This document shows positions 18,881-23,847 of a DNA stretch of 64,000 bases, piece after piece. This stretch comes from Bacillota bacterium. Its GTDB lineage: Bacteria; Bacillota; Sulfobacillia; JABLXB01. The stretch lies in NCBI GenBank assembly GCA_013178305.1, contig JABLXB010000007.1, forward strand, positions 62,001 through 126,000. Direction: 5' to 3'. The notes beneath the pieces are model-generated. The model ran no database searches, was not told the origin of the DNA, and saw nothing but the letters and a program-made list of their open reading frames with translations. Positions within the stretch are counted from its first letter, which is position 1; each line of letters begins with the position of its first letter. The position numbers were made by a program, and so were the translations under genes.

Positions 18881-20461
18881 CTAGCCCAGCCGTTCCGCAA
18901 TCGCCTTGACCTTCCGGAGCAGGTCATCCAGCCCAGTCGCAAACACCAGGATCAGCCTCTCCAGGTTTATCCGATCGGGCACGTCCACGACGTCGGGAAG
19001 CGTCGACCGCGCGGCCAGCACGGCCCTCAGGTCGCGGGAGTAGTCGTCGTCACTCTGGCGGTAATCGGGGGGAGCCGGCATCGCGGCTACCACCAGGCCC
19101 GCCTTTGCGCATGCCCCCAGTACCCGTGGGTTGTTCCGGAGGTTCATCACGCAGCGTGTGTCGGGGAAGAACTCACGCGCGATGAGTAGCGTCCCCGCCA
19201 TGTAGATCGAAGCGCCCATCTCGGGCTGGCCGGTCGGCACCACACGGTCTTTGACCCTGACGAGGCGGCCCGGGATCGCCGCAACGTCCCTGGTCTCACG
19301 CGCCTCCAGTGATGCGTAGGCGATGTTGGCCCCAATTTCGGGGATGAGCGGAAGGATGCCCGCCCTCTCCAGCGCTTTCACCGCCTCAGCAAGTTCCTCA
19401 CAGAGCGTCCTCTCGGCCGGGGTGCGCGTGTCCGACTTGAGTGCCAGCGCGTTAAAGAAGACCTCCCAGAACCGGTCGACTGGAGGGGGGGTAAGCGGTT
19501 CGCGACGCCCGTCGTCGCCTATCCACCATCGCCCGGAGCCGGCGGGCACGACTCGCCCGCACACGGCCGCCTCGATTCCGTGACTCCGGAACGCCTCTAG
19601 CAGGTTTTCCGCCCGGGCGGGGTCGCACGTGAGCACGAGAGTACCTTCACTGATGACCTCGTACGGGTCGAGCCCAAAATGGTCACACACTGCGGCTACG
19701 TCCGCGGGCACCGGCACCTTCGCGCGATCGATCTCAAGACCGGCCCCCGACGCCTCGGCTACTTCCCAGAGGCCGCGGGCCACTCCGCCTTCGGTGGCGT
19801 CGTGCATCGCGTGAACGCCGCCCGCCCTGGTAGCGACCTCGGCGTCCGCAACTACCGACATCTCCTTGAAGCGTAGACGGGCGCGGTCCACTAGGTCCGG
19901 CCCGACACCGGCTGCCAACAGCCTTTCGCCCAGTTCAGAGGCGAGTATTCCCGCGGCCTCTATCGCCGCGCCCTTCGTGAGCACCACCACGTCACCCTCG
20001 CGGGCGCCGCCGGGAGTGATTACCTCACGGCCGGTCCCCCACACCGTTATCCCGCCGATTGTCGGAACGACCACCGCCCCGTAGAATCCGGTGTGGCCAC
20101 CGACGACGGCAATCCCGAGTTCACGCGCGCAATCGCTGATGCTCCTCACCAGCCGCTCCGTATAGTCGTCCAGGGTTCCGGGAGGGAGGAGGAGTGTATA
20201 CGTCATGAACCCGGGTTTCACGCCCAGCACCGCCACGTCGCTTGCGCCGATGTGAACGGTGATCCAACCGTAGTCCTCAGGGGAAGTCGTCGGACCCGGG
20301 AATATGGGGTCCTCGGCCACCACCAGGTATTCCTCTCCGAATTTGAGTACCGCGGCGTCAACACCCATCTTAGGGCCCACGACTACGTGTGGGGAATGCG
20401 CCCCTGTGTGGGGCAGGATTGCGCGACGGAAGAAGTCGTCGTTTACCTTACCTATCACCAT
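18881..20461 (-). CDS. AIR-synthase-like (HypE/ThiL superfamily) – ThiN fusion protein
   Basis: A 526-residue two-domain cytoplasmic protein. Residues 1-335 form an AIR-synthase-type ATP-binding fold: MGVDAAVLKFGEEYLVVAED at the start, GASDVAVLGVKP, GGHTGFYG, and a HypE/SelD-like MHDATEGGVARGLWEVAE (219-236). Residues 350-526 are a ThiN domain: IGANIAYA, DVAAIPGRLVRVKD, MGASIY, MNLRNNPRVL and VVDVPDRINLE. ThiN makes thiamine monophosphate and is usually fused to ThiD in archaea. ThiL, a thiamine-phosphate kinase, belongs to the same superfamily as the N-terminal domain. AGGAGGG precedes ATG. A TPP riboswitch with terminator lies upstream, so a thiamine role is strongly indicated. The exact reaction of the N-terminal domain is inference. 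Confidence 0.85.
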   Translation of the reverse strand: MVIGKVNDDFFRRAILPHTGAHSPHVVVGPKMGVDAAVLKFGEEYLVVAEDPIFPGPTTSPEDYGWITVHIGASDVAVLGVKPGFMTYTLLLPPGTLDDYTERLVRSISDCARELGIAVVGGHTGFYGAVVVPTIGGITVWGTGREVITPGGAREGDVVVLTKGAAIEAAGILASELGERLLAAGVGPDLVDRARLRFKEMSVVADAEVATRAGGVHAMHDATEGGVARGLWEVAEASGAGLEIDRAKVPVPADVAAVCDHFGLDPYEVISEGTLVLTCDPARAENLLEAFRSHGIEAAVCGRVVPAGSGRWWIGDDGRREPLTPPPVDRFWEVFFNALALKSDTRTPAERTLCEELAEAVKALERAGILPLIPEIGANIAYASLEARETRDVAAIPGRLVRVKDRVVPTGQPEMGASIYMAGTLLIAREFFPDTRCVMNLRNNPRVLGACAKAGLVVAAMPAPPDYRQSDDDYSRDLRAVLAARSTLPDVVDVPDRINLERLILVFATGLDDLLRKVKAIAERLG

Positions 20462-20530: not shown

Positions 20531-20561
20531 GGGTACAGGCCAGATCTTGACACCATACTTG

Positions 20562-20648
20562 ATCGTCCCTGCGCAGGCATTACCCTGATCAGGTTCCTCG
20601 GGTCAGGCGCAAGCCGCCTTTCTCAGCCCTCCAGAGCTCCCCGTCAGT
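20562..20648 (-). promoter_or_regulatory. TPP riboswitch (thi-box)
   Basis: The minus strand carries all conserved parts in order: ACGGGGAGC, GGGCTGAGAAAGGCGGCTT, GACCC, GAACCTGATCAGGGTAATGC, then CTGCGCAGGGA. A terminator hairpin follows, so TPP should shut off transcription of the AIRS-ThiN gene. A possible -10 (TATTAT) lies just upstream near 20651-20656. Confidence 0.93.
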
Positions 20649-21026
20649 CAAATAATACCACAATCCAGGATTCCAATAAATGGTCAAACGATTTGCTGCA
20701 TAAAGGCGCGCGCCCGCGAGAACAATGATAAACGGCAGCACCGAGACGGGCCGCGAGCTCCTCACGGAGCCCTTCCTGAAACGCCTTCGGGCTCAATACA
20801 TGGAAGCGCATGCCCGCCCCGGCGCTGCCTCGCTTTTGACCCGGGCGCTAGACCGCGCAGCCCGAAAGGCGGATCACATCACGTCGGCCTGGCGATTGAG
20901 CGCGCTGTCCGGGCACGCGTGGTCGGTGTCCTCATCCTCGTTGGGATCCCAGTACACCTTAGGTCGGGGTATCGTCGACGGCTCTGGGCATAATAGGCAC
21001 ACACGCCAATCGGAGGGTGATCTCAG

Positions 21027-21998
21027 ATGAGACGACTGTTGGGGAAGAAACCGGTCACGCGCGCCGCCTTGCGCCTCGCGACGATTGCGGTAATCGTAAC
21101 CGCCGTTCTCGCATCGGCGACGGGGTGCAGCCTGCGCTTGTTCCGGAGACCGGCGCCCGCGGGCCAGGAACCCACCCTCACGTTGTTCTCGCACAAAGAC
21201 AACACCACGAAGCAGATCAAACTCGAGGAGTACATCCAGGGAGTGGTGGCCGCGGAGATACAGCCCGACTGGCCCATGGAGGCGCTGAAAGCGCAGGCTA
21301 TCGTGGCGAGGACCTTTACTCTCCAGAAAAGGGACGAGGGCACGGTCAGGCCGATTCACGGCACCGACGCCTGTGACAGCAAGGACCACTTCCAGGCATA
21401 CGATCCGTCGAGGATCAACGAGAACGTCAAGCGCGCCGTGCAGGAGACCCGGGGGATGGTCATACTGTTCGGAGGGAAGCCGATACGCGCGTGGTTCCAC
21501 TCCAACTCGGGTGGCAAGACCGCCACTGCGCAGGAAGGCTTGAACTTCACGCAGGAATCCGCACCGTACGCTGTACCGGTGGATGACCCCATGTCACTCC
21601 AGAACGCGCCCGCGGACCAGAAGTCATGGACCGCCACGTTCAGCGCCGGCGACCTGAGCGGGGCTGCCGCGAAACTTGGCAAGAGCGTGAGCGGGGTCAA
21701 GTCCGCCTCCATCGGGAAGAAGGGGCCCTCAGGCCGCGCGCTGACCATCGTAATCAACGGACAGGAGTTTCCCGCAGCCGAACTGCGGACCAGCCTTGGG
21801 CCTGAGAGGATGAAATCGACGCTCCTGGATTCCGTGAGTGTGTCTGGTGGCAAGGTCGTCATGAAGGGGCGCGGCTGGGGTCACGGTGTAGGCATGTCCC
21901 AGTGGGGCGCCGAGGCGATGGCCAAAGCGGGGAAGAAGGCGGAGGACATCATCAAGTTCTACTTCAAGGGTGTCGATCTGACGAAGATGTGGCAATAG
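21027..21998 (+). CDS. spoIID: SpoIID/LytB-domain sporulation lipoprotein
   Basis: A 323-residue membrane-anchored protein with a hydrophobic N-terminus and lipobox-like ATGCS (Cys34). The SpoIID domain has LEEYIQGVVAAEIQPDWP, ALKAQAIVARTFTL, a HSNSGGKTA block, and the C-terminal signature GRGWGHGVGMSQWGA. SpoIID is a lytic transglycosylase that cuts glycan strands lacking stem peptides during forespore engulfment, together with SpoIIP and SpoIIM. GGAGGG precedes the ATG. It is a single gene bounded by a terminator. The catalytic Glu region (VVAAEI) is present. SpoIID-like paralogues exist in spore formers, so strict orthology is not certain. Confidence 0.88.
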   Translation: MRRLLGKKPVTRAALRLATIAVIVTAVLASATGCSLRLFRRPAPAGQEPTLTLFSHKDNTTKQIKLEEYIQGVVAAEIQPDWPMEALKAQAIVARTFTLQKRDEGTVRPIHGTDACDSKDHFQAYDPSRINENVKRAVQETRGMVILFGGKPIRAWFHSNSGGKTATAQEGLNFTQESAPYAVPVDDPMSLQNAPADQKSWTATFSAGDLSGAAAKLGKSVSGVKSASIGKKGPSGRALTIVINGQEFPAAELRTSLGPERMKSTLLDSVSVSGGKVVMKGRGWGHGVGMSQWGAEAMAKAGKKAEDIIKFYFKGVDLTKMWQ

Positions 21999-22071
21999 CA
22001 GCAGCGCGCGAGCGCCGGCGGGGAAAACAACCGCCCCCAGGAGAGGGGAACTGCCTGGGGGCTCCCGCGAT

Positions 22072-22107
22072 GCCCGAGGAAGGGGAGGCGACCTCGGGCT
22101 CTTTTTA
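22072..22107 (+). terminator. Terminator after spoIID
   Basis: Stem GCCCGAGG (22072-22079) with CCTCGGGC (22092-22099), then TCTTTTT. A second G/C-rich hairpin without T-run precedes it (22034-22062). Confidence 0.85.
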
Positions 22108-22171
22108 TCCTGTCAACGTGTACCTTGTGTCGCGACGCCCGCTCAGCGCGCCGGCGGCGCCCGCACCACAA

Positions 22172-22204
22172 ACAAACAGGACCCAGGAGGCTACTCCCGG
22201 GTCC
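22172..22204 (-). terminator. Terminator of the c-di-AMP riboswitch unit
   Basis: On the minus strand an 11-bp stem with one mismatch (22204-22194 with 22189-22179) is followed by TGTTTGTTTG. It lies about 30 bases after the aptamer and is the probable expression platform. Confidence 0.7.
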
Positions 22205-22230
22205 CTCGATTGGGCCCCCGAAATGTTCCT

Positions 22231-22352
22231 CCTTCCACGCTTACGAGGTTAGCTGACGGATTCGGGTTGAAGAAGTAACCCTACCCTGCTCTCGCAGGGA
22301 TTCACCCCGGTGTACTGGGTCCCCCGTTCCCTCTGAAGGGATTCAGCGTTCA
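22231..22352 (-). promoter_or_regulatory. c-di-AMP riboswitch (ydaO/yuaA type)
   Basis: The minus strand shows the ydaO motif in order: AACGCTGAATCCC, GAACGGGGGACCCA, GGGGTGAATCC, AGGGTTACTTCTTC, and the invariant CCGTCAGCTAACCTCGTAAG followed by CGT. These riboswitches bind cyclic di-AMP and usually turn off potassium-uptake or cell-wall genes. Here it has a strong promoter and a terminator but no open reading frame follows on this strand; the next gene, spoIID, faces it tail to tail. Confidence 0.92.
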
Positions 22353-22375
22353 ACGACACCCGTACTGTTGTTATC

Positions 22376-22404
22376 ATTATAATCCTGCCACCGTGCACGG
22401 TCAA
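22376..22404 (-). promoter_or_regulatory. Sigma-A promoter of the c-di-AMP riboswitch transcript
   Basis: On the minus strand TTGACC (22404-22399), spacer of 17 bases, TATAAT (22381-22376), about 25 bases before the aptamer. Confidence 0.85.
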
Positions 22405-22641
22405 CGAGGAAACGCCTGCCAGGCGCTTGTCGTCGCGAAGCGCGGCGCGGGTGCGCGGCGCGGGTTTCACCTGTTGACGACGATTCAGGTGGCCACCTTG
22501 TTCCCGGGCGTGGGAAGGAGGCGGGGTCCGAACGGCGAAGTAACACGGGTGGCCGATCATGGTCGCCTATGCGGCTCCATGAGCCCCCAGCCGGGTAACG
22601 CCGCTTGAGGCCATTCGACGGGGAGAAAGGAAGGGACGCGT

Positions 22642-23847
22642 ATGGTGGATTTCGAGCTGACGGAAGAGCAGCGCATGGTCGAGAAGATGGTACGCGACTT
22701 CGCGAATCAGGAATGCGCGCCGAAGATACAGGACCTCGACCGCGAGCACAAGTTCGACAAGACAGTCCTCAGCCAGATGGCCGAACTGGGGATCCTCGGG
22801 ATCTCGGTTCCTGAGAAGTACGGCGGGGGCGGGATGGATTACATCAGCCTCGGACTGGCCTGCGAGGAACTCGAGTACGTCGATACCTCGCTCAGGGTCA
22901 TCATGTCCGTCCATGCGGGCCTCAACTGCTGCACCCTCATGGCGTGGGCCAACGAGGAACAGAAGCAAAAATACCTCGTGCCGCAGGCCAAGGGTGAGAA
23001 GATAGCTACCTACGCCCTTACCGAACCCAACGCGGGAAGCGATGCCGTGGGGATCCAGACCGTCGCCGACAAGAAGGATGACATGTACGTCCTCAACGGC
23101 GAGAAGATGTGGATCTCGCTGGCCGACGTCGCCGACAACTTCCTCACGTTCGCCTGGACCGACAGGGAGAAGCAGCGCAAGCGTGACCACACCGGTATCT
23201 CCGCCTTCATAGTAGAGAGGGGTATGAAGGGCCTCACGACCGCCACGATACACGGCAAGCTCGGTATCAGGGCCGGCAACACGGGGTCCATATCGTTCCA
23301 GGATGTCGAGGTCCCCAGGGAAAACTTGCTCGGCCGCGAGGGAGAGGGCTTCAAGATAGCCATGTTTGCTATCGACCAGGGCCGCTACACGGTGGCGGCC
23401 GGCGCGACCGGCCTTGTCCGTGCGTCCCTGGACGCGAGCGTGAAGTACGCGCACGAAAGGCAGACCTTCGGAGTTGAGATCGGGCGGCACCAGCTCATCA
23501 AGGAAATGATCGCCCAGATGGCGCGGGATTACGACGCCGCGAGGCTTCTCTGGATGAGGGCGGGCTGGCTCAAGAACAAGGGCCTTCGCAACAGCCGTGA
23601 GACTGCGCTCGCCAAGTGGTTCGCCTGCGACGCCTCGGAGAGGGCGGCGTCGGACGCAGTGCAGATCCACGGCGCGTACGGCTACTCCGACGAGTACCCC
23701 GTCGAGAGGTTCTACCGCAACTGCAAGGGCGCCGTCATTTACGAGGGCGCGCGCGAGATACAGAAGCTCCTGCACGGCGACTACGCGCTGGGCTACAGGA
23801 AGGACAAGCCGCTGAGGTGCAGCCTTCCAGCCTGGCCGTTTGAGTGA
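22642..23847 (+). CDS. Acyl-CoA dehydrogenase
   Basis: A 401-residue FAD flavoenzyme that introduces a trans-2,3 double bond into acyl-CoA. It has the ACAD N-terminus (ELTEEQRMVEKMVRDFA), PEKYGGGGMDYISLGLACEE, the FAD/substrate signature YALTEPNAGSDAVG, and the C-terminal DAVQIHGAYGYSDEYPVERFYR. The catalytic base is the Glu of IYEGAREIQK. The last 15 residues (after HGDYALGYRK) are unusual. AAGGAAGG lies before ATG. It sits 30 bases upstream of a ferredoxin-linked 2-oxoacid oxidoreductase operon, which suggests oxidative breakdown of amino or organic acids through CoA esters. Acyl specificity cannot be read. Confidence 0.92.
   Translation: MVDFELTEEQRMVEKMVRDFANQECAPKIQDLDREHKFDKTVLSQMAELGILGISVPEKYGGGGMDYISLGLACEELEYVDTSLRVIMSVHAGLNCCTLMAWANEEQKQKYLVPQAKGEKIATYALTEPNAGSDAVGIQTVADKKDDMYVLNGEKMWISLADVADNFLTFAWTDREKQRKRDHTGISAFIVERGMKGLTTATIHGKLGIRAGNTGSISFQDVEVPRENLLGREGEGFKIAMFAIDQGRYTVAAGATGLVRASLDASVKYAHERQTFGVEIGRHQLIKEMIAQMARDYDAARLLWMRAGWLKNKGLRNSRETALAKWFACDASERAASDAVQIHGAYGYSDEYPVERFYRNCKGAVIYEGAREIQKLLHGDYALGYRKDKPLRCSLPAWPFE

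Follow-up and report, generated by a model that had tools for sequence, protein, structure and literature searches.

A conserved c-di-AMP riboswitch unit without a gene of its own faces the 3' end of a SpoIID/LytB-domain gene and probably makes a regulatory RNA

The window analysed here, a stretch of 64,000 nucleotides from a Bacillota bacterium, carries on its minus strand a c-di-AMP (ydaO/yuaA) riboswitch aptamer at 22223-22358, which cmscan matched to RF00379 over the whole length of the model (positions 1-134 of 134) with 110.1 bits, above the gathering score of 38. The strongly conserved consensus letters of the family are matched, and ligand binding is predicted. The 3' edge of a promoter, TTGACC-17-TATAAT (22376-22404, minus strand), lies 17 bases upstream of the aptamer and agrees with the consensus boxes at 11 of 12 positions; a scan of 21000-23000 gave 2 promoter-like sites, where shuffled sequence gave 0.3 on average. 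Judging from the -10 box, transcription would start near 22369. On the other side of the aptamer is the intrinsic terminator of the switch, T1 (22178-22205, minus strand), with a 12-pair stem, a hairpin energy of approximately -21 kcal/mol and the tail GTTTGTTTGT (6 T in a 9-base tail). Such reading frames as the minus strand offers from the aptamer to the next gene lack a Shine-Dalgarno match in the window, and the relatives described below show no counterpart of them. The unit that a sequence-only reading of this DNA had described, namely a promoter, a full ydaO-type aptamer and a terminator with no open reading frame, is thus borne out.

The gene that converges on the unit (21027-21998, plus strand) encodes a SpoIID/LytB-domain protein, with 85 bits for PF08486 and 218.2 bits, above cut-off, for TIGR02669 (SpoIID/LytB domain). 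It had been read as spoIID itself, and a tie between c-di-AMP and engulfment had been offered as one possibility. The convergent arrangement stands, but canonical spoIID is a different gene: the convergent copy reaches 197.8 bits with the spoIID equivalog model TIGR02870, under the cut-off of 234.75, and the canonical copy lies on another contig (G000:C1:767093-767941), where it scored 331 bits versus 194.5 bits for the 21027-21998 copy in one search. We therefore refer to the convergent gene as a SpoIID/LytB paralogue and, because the neighbour is a paralogue, regard the link to engulfment as unsupported. Elsewhere in the window, a TPP riboswitch (20549-20653, minus strand, 65.2 bits) is found directly upstream of a minus-strand gene (18881-20461) in which AIR-synthase domains are fused to a ThiN thiamine-phosphate synthase, a sensible sense-acting TPP target.

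Two further hairpins lie between T1 and the paralogue. A transcript that passed T1 would reach, ahead of the SpoIID/LytB stop codon, a second terminator-like hairpin, T2 (22033-22062, minus strand; -20.4 kcal/mol, 6 T in a 10-base tail). Interleaved with it is T3 (22072-22099, plus strand; -17.2 kcal/mol, 7 T in a 10-base tail), the terminator of the SpoIID/LytB gene.

We compared the locus among three genomes of the family, the window's own (G000) and two relatives (G001 and G002), each of its own genus, with G011 as outgroup. All three family genomes have the orphan switch behind a SpoIID/LytB orthologue with no intervening gene, the identities of the orthologues in the two relatives being 71% and 73% in one search, and 72% and 75% to the window copy in an alignment. 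A downstream gene regulated in cis, as is characteristic of RF00379, is absent, no sense gene preceding the convergent gene in any of the three. Both promoter boxes are kept in G001 and G002, with spacers of 17 and 18, and T1 is found in all three genomes with an invariant 3' arm and weaker tails in G001 and G002. T2 also has equivalents in both relatives, and in each genome none of 60 mononucleotide shuffles equalled its score. Read in the plus direction from the stop codon, the order is T2, T3, T1 in all three, with T2 and T3 approximately 10-12 nt apart; the distance from the stop codon to the end of the aptamer is 225 nt in the window, 148 nt in G001 and 204 nt in G002. The upstream neighbour of the switch, on the other hand, is different in every genome: an acyl-CoA dehydrogenase gene in the window, a sigma-54 activator followed by the dehydrogenase in G002, and in G001 a frame without assignment followed by ytxC and thrS orthologues. 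In the outgroup, the SpoIID/LytB orthologue is followed after 76 nt by ytxC, with no switch and no other gene at the site and, by eye, no pair resembling T2 and T3; none of the three c-di-AMP switches of G011 is on the contig of this orthologue. A YtxC neighbourhood was seen in the flanks of 2 of 30 SpoIID-like loci. Among the matches listed, a c-di-AMP switch near a gene with a SpoIID domain was seen in the three family genomes and, apart from these, only at G050:C84, where the SpoIID homologue is weak and a sense gene separates it from the switch.

A small unannotated protein, encoded between T1 and T2 and placed under control of the switch, would be one way to account for the missing target. 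G001, and G001 alone, does have a 34-aa minus-strand frame with a Shine-Dalgarno sequence downstream of the switch. The frame has no counterpart in G000 or G002, however, and the stretch between T1 and T2 is unconserved, so that we consider such a protein very improbable.

The lack of a gene is abnormal for the class. We analysed 101 switches out of 127 RF00379-class matches, with gene calls made by codon scoring and not by a gene finder, and in 90 of the 101 a sense gene lies no more than 500 nt away; for 4 the sense gene is more than 500 nt away, and in 1 case the contig ends. Codon scoring called 6 of the 101 convergent, including the family trio, and only the trio was counted as clear. Of the other three, G056:C92 and G058:C2 each have, beyond a doubtful frame, a sense gene of one look-alike kind at a distance of about 960-980 nt, and for G022:C77 the longest-frame pass gave a sense frame.

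Such an exception might be expected of a deletion scar, in which a switch is left to decay after the loss of the gene that it once regulated, as the sequence-only reading had allowed. A gene directly after the switch in related genomes would have marked the unit as such a scar; it was found in none of the three family genomes, nor at the outgroup site. Moreover, the orphan aptamers are intact in three genera, with pairwise identities of 0.88, 0.82 and 0.83, while the fourfold sites of the SpoIID/LytB gene, at 0.34, 0.34 and 0.32 for the same pairs, indicate saturated synonymous divergence. An orthologous switch ahead of a GNAT-acetyltransferase gene gives 0.79, 0.77 and 0.79 in these genome pairs; at 82-88% versus 77-79%, the orphan has therefore been kept at least as well as a gene-bearing switch, in a comparison of three genomes from one family and with one origin. 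Outside the unit, identity falls to 14-35% upstream of the promoter and 14-43% in the 80 bases past T1, and the stretch from T1 to T3 is not conserved. Since the unit has been kept without a gene in three genera, the outgroup has no gene that could have been deleted, and the upstream neighbour varies, we regard the scar as very unlikely. The unit is probably not a leftover, and its retention in three related genera suggests that it makes a regulatory RNA. The orphan aptamers group in a single clade (support 0.845) apart from the switches of the outgroup. We also considered an origin from an opuC-type switch and rejected it: the orphan aptamers stand in their own clade, and the search with OpuCA returned, among the matches listed, generic ABC matches. 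DNA similarity to plasmids was confined to pieces covering 8-17% of the query.

How T1 might respond to c-di-AMP was addressed by folding. Pairing between the 3' purine strand of the aptamer and the 3' arm of T1 is possible in all three family genomes. Across the 54 of the 101 class switches for which a terminator was called, however, this antiterminator was no better than mismatched pairs (median rank 0.43); the ranks of the three orphans were 0.11, 0.15 and 0.26. In the unliganded equilibrium fold, T1 forms with probabilities of 0.79, 1.00 and 1.00 in the three genomes, and T1 may therefore be constitutive. Equilibrium and truncated folds did not separate the orphans from gene-bearing switches, and the folding of the complete 221-nt leader is little better than that of shuffled sequence (z -1.09). 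Because the antiterminator does not rise above its control and T1 folds without ligand, we infer ligand control of T1 from the riboswitch family. With this qualification, the c-di-AMP-regulated small RNA is the best supported of the three alternatives in the sequence-only reading, to which the comparison adds a conserved, gene-less unit.

The folding results would also suit a stand-alone c-di-AMP-binding RNA of about 200 nt that always ends at T1 and acts in trans or by binding the ligand, its position next to the SpoIID/LytB gene being incidental. Conservation of the promoter, aptamer and T1, with the unconserved stretch beyond, is in keeping with this. Against it, the unit is fixed at the 3' end of one gene in all three genera although the other flank varies, and two of the three genomes have weak T1 tails, which makes leakage past T1 plausible. 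The conserved T2 likewise suggests that transcription beyond T1 occurs. We therefore think a purely stand-alone RNA rather unlikely, though a serious candidate.

With the anatomy, conservation, gene absence and terminator order given by computation, we infer that the unit is transcribed, that the ligand controls T1 and that the SpoIID/LytB neighbour may be affected. The unit would be an autonomous, selected non-coding element that makes an aptamer RNA and likely ties the 3' end of the SpoIID/LytB gene to c-di-AMP, a reading to which we give about an even chance. In its specific form, which we put forward tentatively, c-di-AMP would set the length of an opposing RNA that overlaps the 3' UTR of the SpoIID/LytB gene and has its own 3' end interleaved with that gene's terminator. 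Transcription from the unit's own promoter would end at T1, giving a short RNA of about 200 nt, or, when T1 is passed, at T2, giving a longer one of about 340 nt; the longer RNA would overlap the 3' UTR of the SpoIID/LytB mRNA tail to tail by about 75-85 nt. The likely purpose would be to place this 3' end under the influence of c-di-AMP, either through the stability of the mRNA or through colliding transcription. ydaO switches usually behave as OFF switches. With that sign, low c-di-AMP would lengthen the opposing RNA and lower the SpoIID/LytB gene, and high c-di-AMP would spare it.

The sequence-only reading had the transcript run antisense into the gene itself when T1 is open. A strict version of this, in which RNA made without c-di-AMP passes both T1 and T2 and represses the SpoIID/LytB gene by running into its coding sequence (compare SAM/ubiG and B12/pocR), agrees with the orientation of the unit and with its distance of 225 nt, which falls within the antisense definition of a published survey (opposite strand, at most 500 nt from the 3' end; PMC9943018); that survey's counts per class include 27 antisense ydaO switches versus 2,799 sense ones. 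T2 is in the way in all three genomes, however, so that read-through RNA would overlap the 3' UTR and probably not the coding sequence. The weaker form of the claim thus survives as the overlap proposed above, and we consider the strict form improbable.

Like gene-bearing ydaO/yuaA (RF00379) switches before wall-hydrolase or transporter genes, the unit has an aptamer, a promoter and a terminator-type platform; unlike them, it is followed by no gene and faces the 3' end of one. In this respect it resembles the B12-riboswitch antisense RNA aspocR/Rli39 of Listeria monocytogenes, as described in PMC4179725, where the riboswitch also lies 3' of and opposite a gene and short terminated and longer read-through forms occur, as proposed here; aspocR overlaps the pocR gene, whereas T2 would end the present RNA in the 3' UTR, and the ligands differ. 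The SAM-riboswitch antisense RNA of ubiG-mccBA in Clostridium acetobutylicum, as recounted in PMC9943018, is likewise driven from a riboswitch at a 3' end on the opposite strand, but it enters the operon and responds to another ligand. According to this 2023 survey, experiments had until then described only two antisense-acting riboswitches. Its 27 antisense ydaO-yuaA cases share class, orientation and the limit of 500 nt with the orphan unit, which is thus another case of a known kind. SpoIID, sporulation and cell wall have no occurrence in the survey's main text, and among the papers and abstracts consulted we met no conserved example with interleaved terminators next to a SpoIID/LytB gene. 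A c-di-AMP case selected across genera beside a cell-wall gene would provide a concrete connection, open to testing and made by RNA alone, between c-di-AMP and the remodelling of the wall; it also illustrates how a selected gene-less riboswitch can be told apart from a scar.

In line with the proposed coupling, a c-di-AMP synthase domain (PF02457, 153.3 bits) is encoded in the genome of the window. Wall hydrolases are ordinary targets of c-di-AMP switches, and in this genome one switch (L034, G000:C5:190982-191116) precedes, in the sense direction, a gene with Amidase_3 and peptidoglycan-binding domains, which places a wall hydrolase in the putative c-di-AMP regulon. Lastly, a GNAT-like acetyltransferase gene, an unusual c-di-AMP target, follows a c-di-AMP switch in the three family genomes and the outgroup G011 (L033 on G000:C2, L036, L038 and L040). 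Pfam confirmed GNAT for the G000 and G002 copies, the two that were submitted, and in the family genomes the gene is followed by a phosphate-transport-like operon, named by eye. At a contig end of G001 (L035:3-569, minus strand), we also observed a low-complexity Gly-Gly-Pro-Ser repeat protein.
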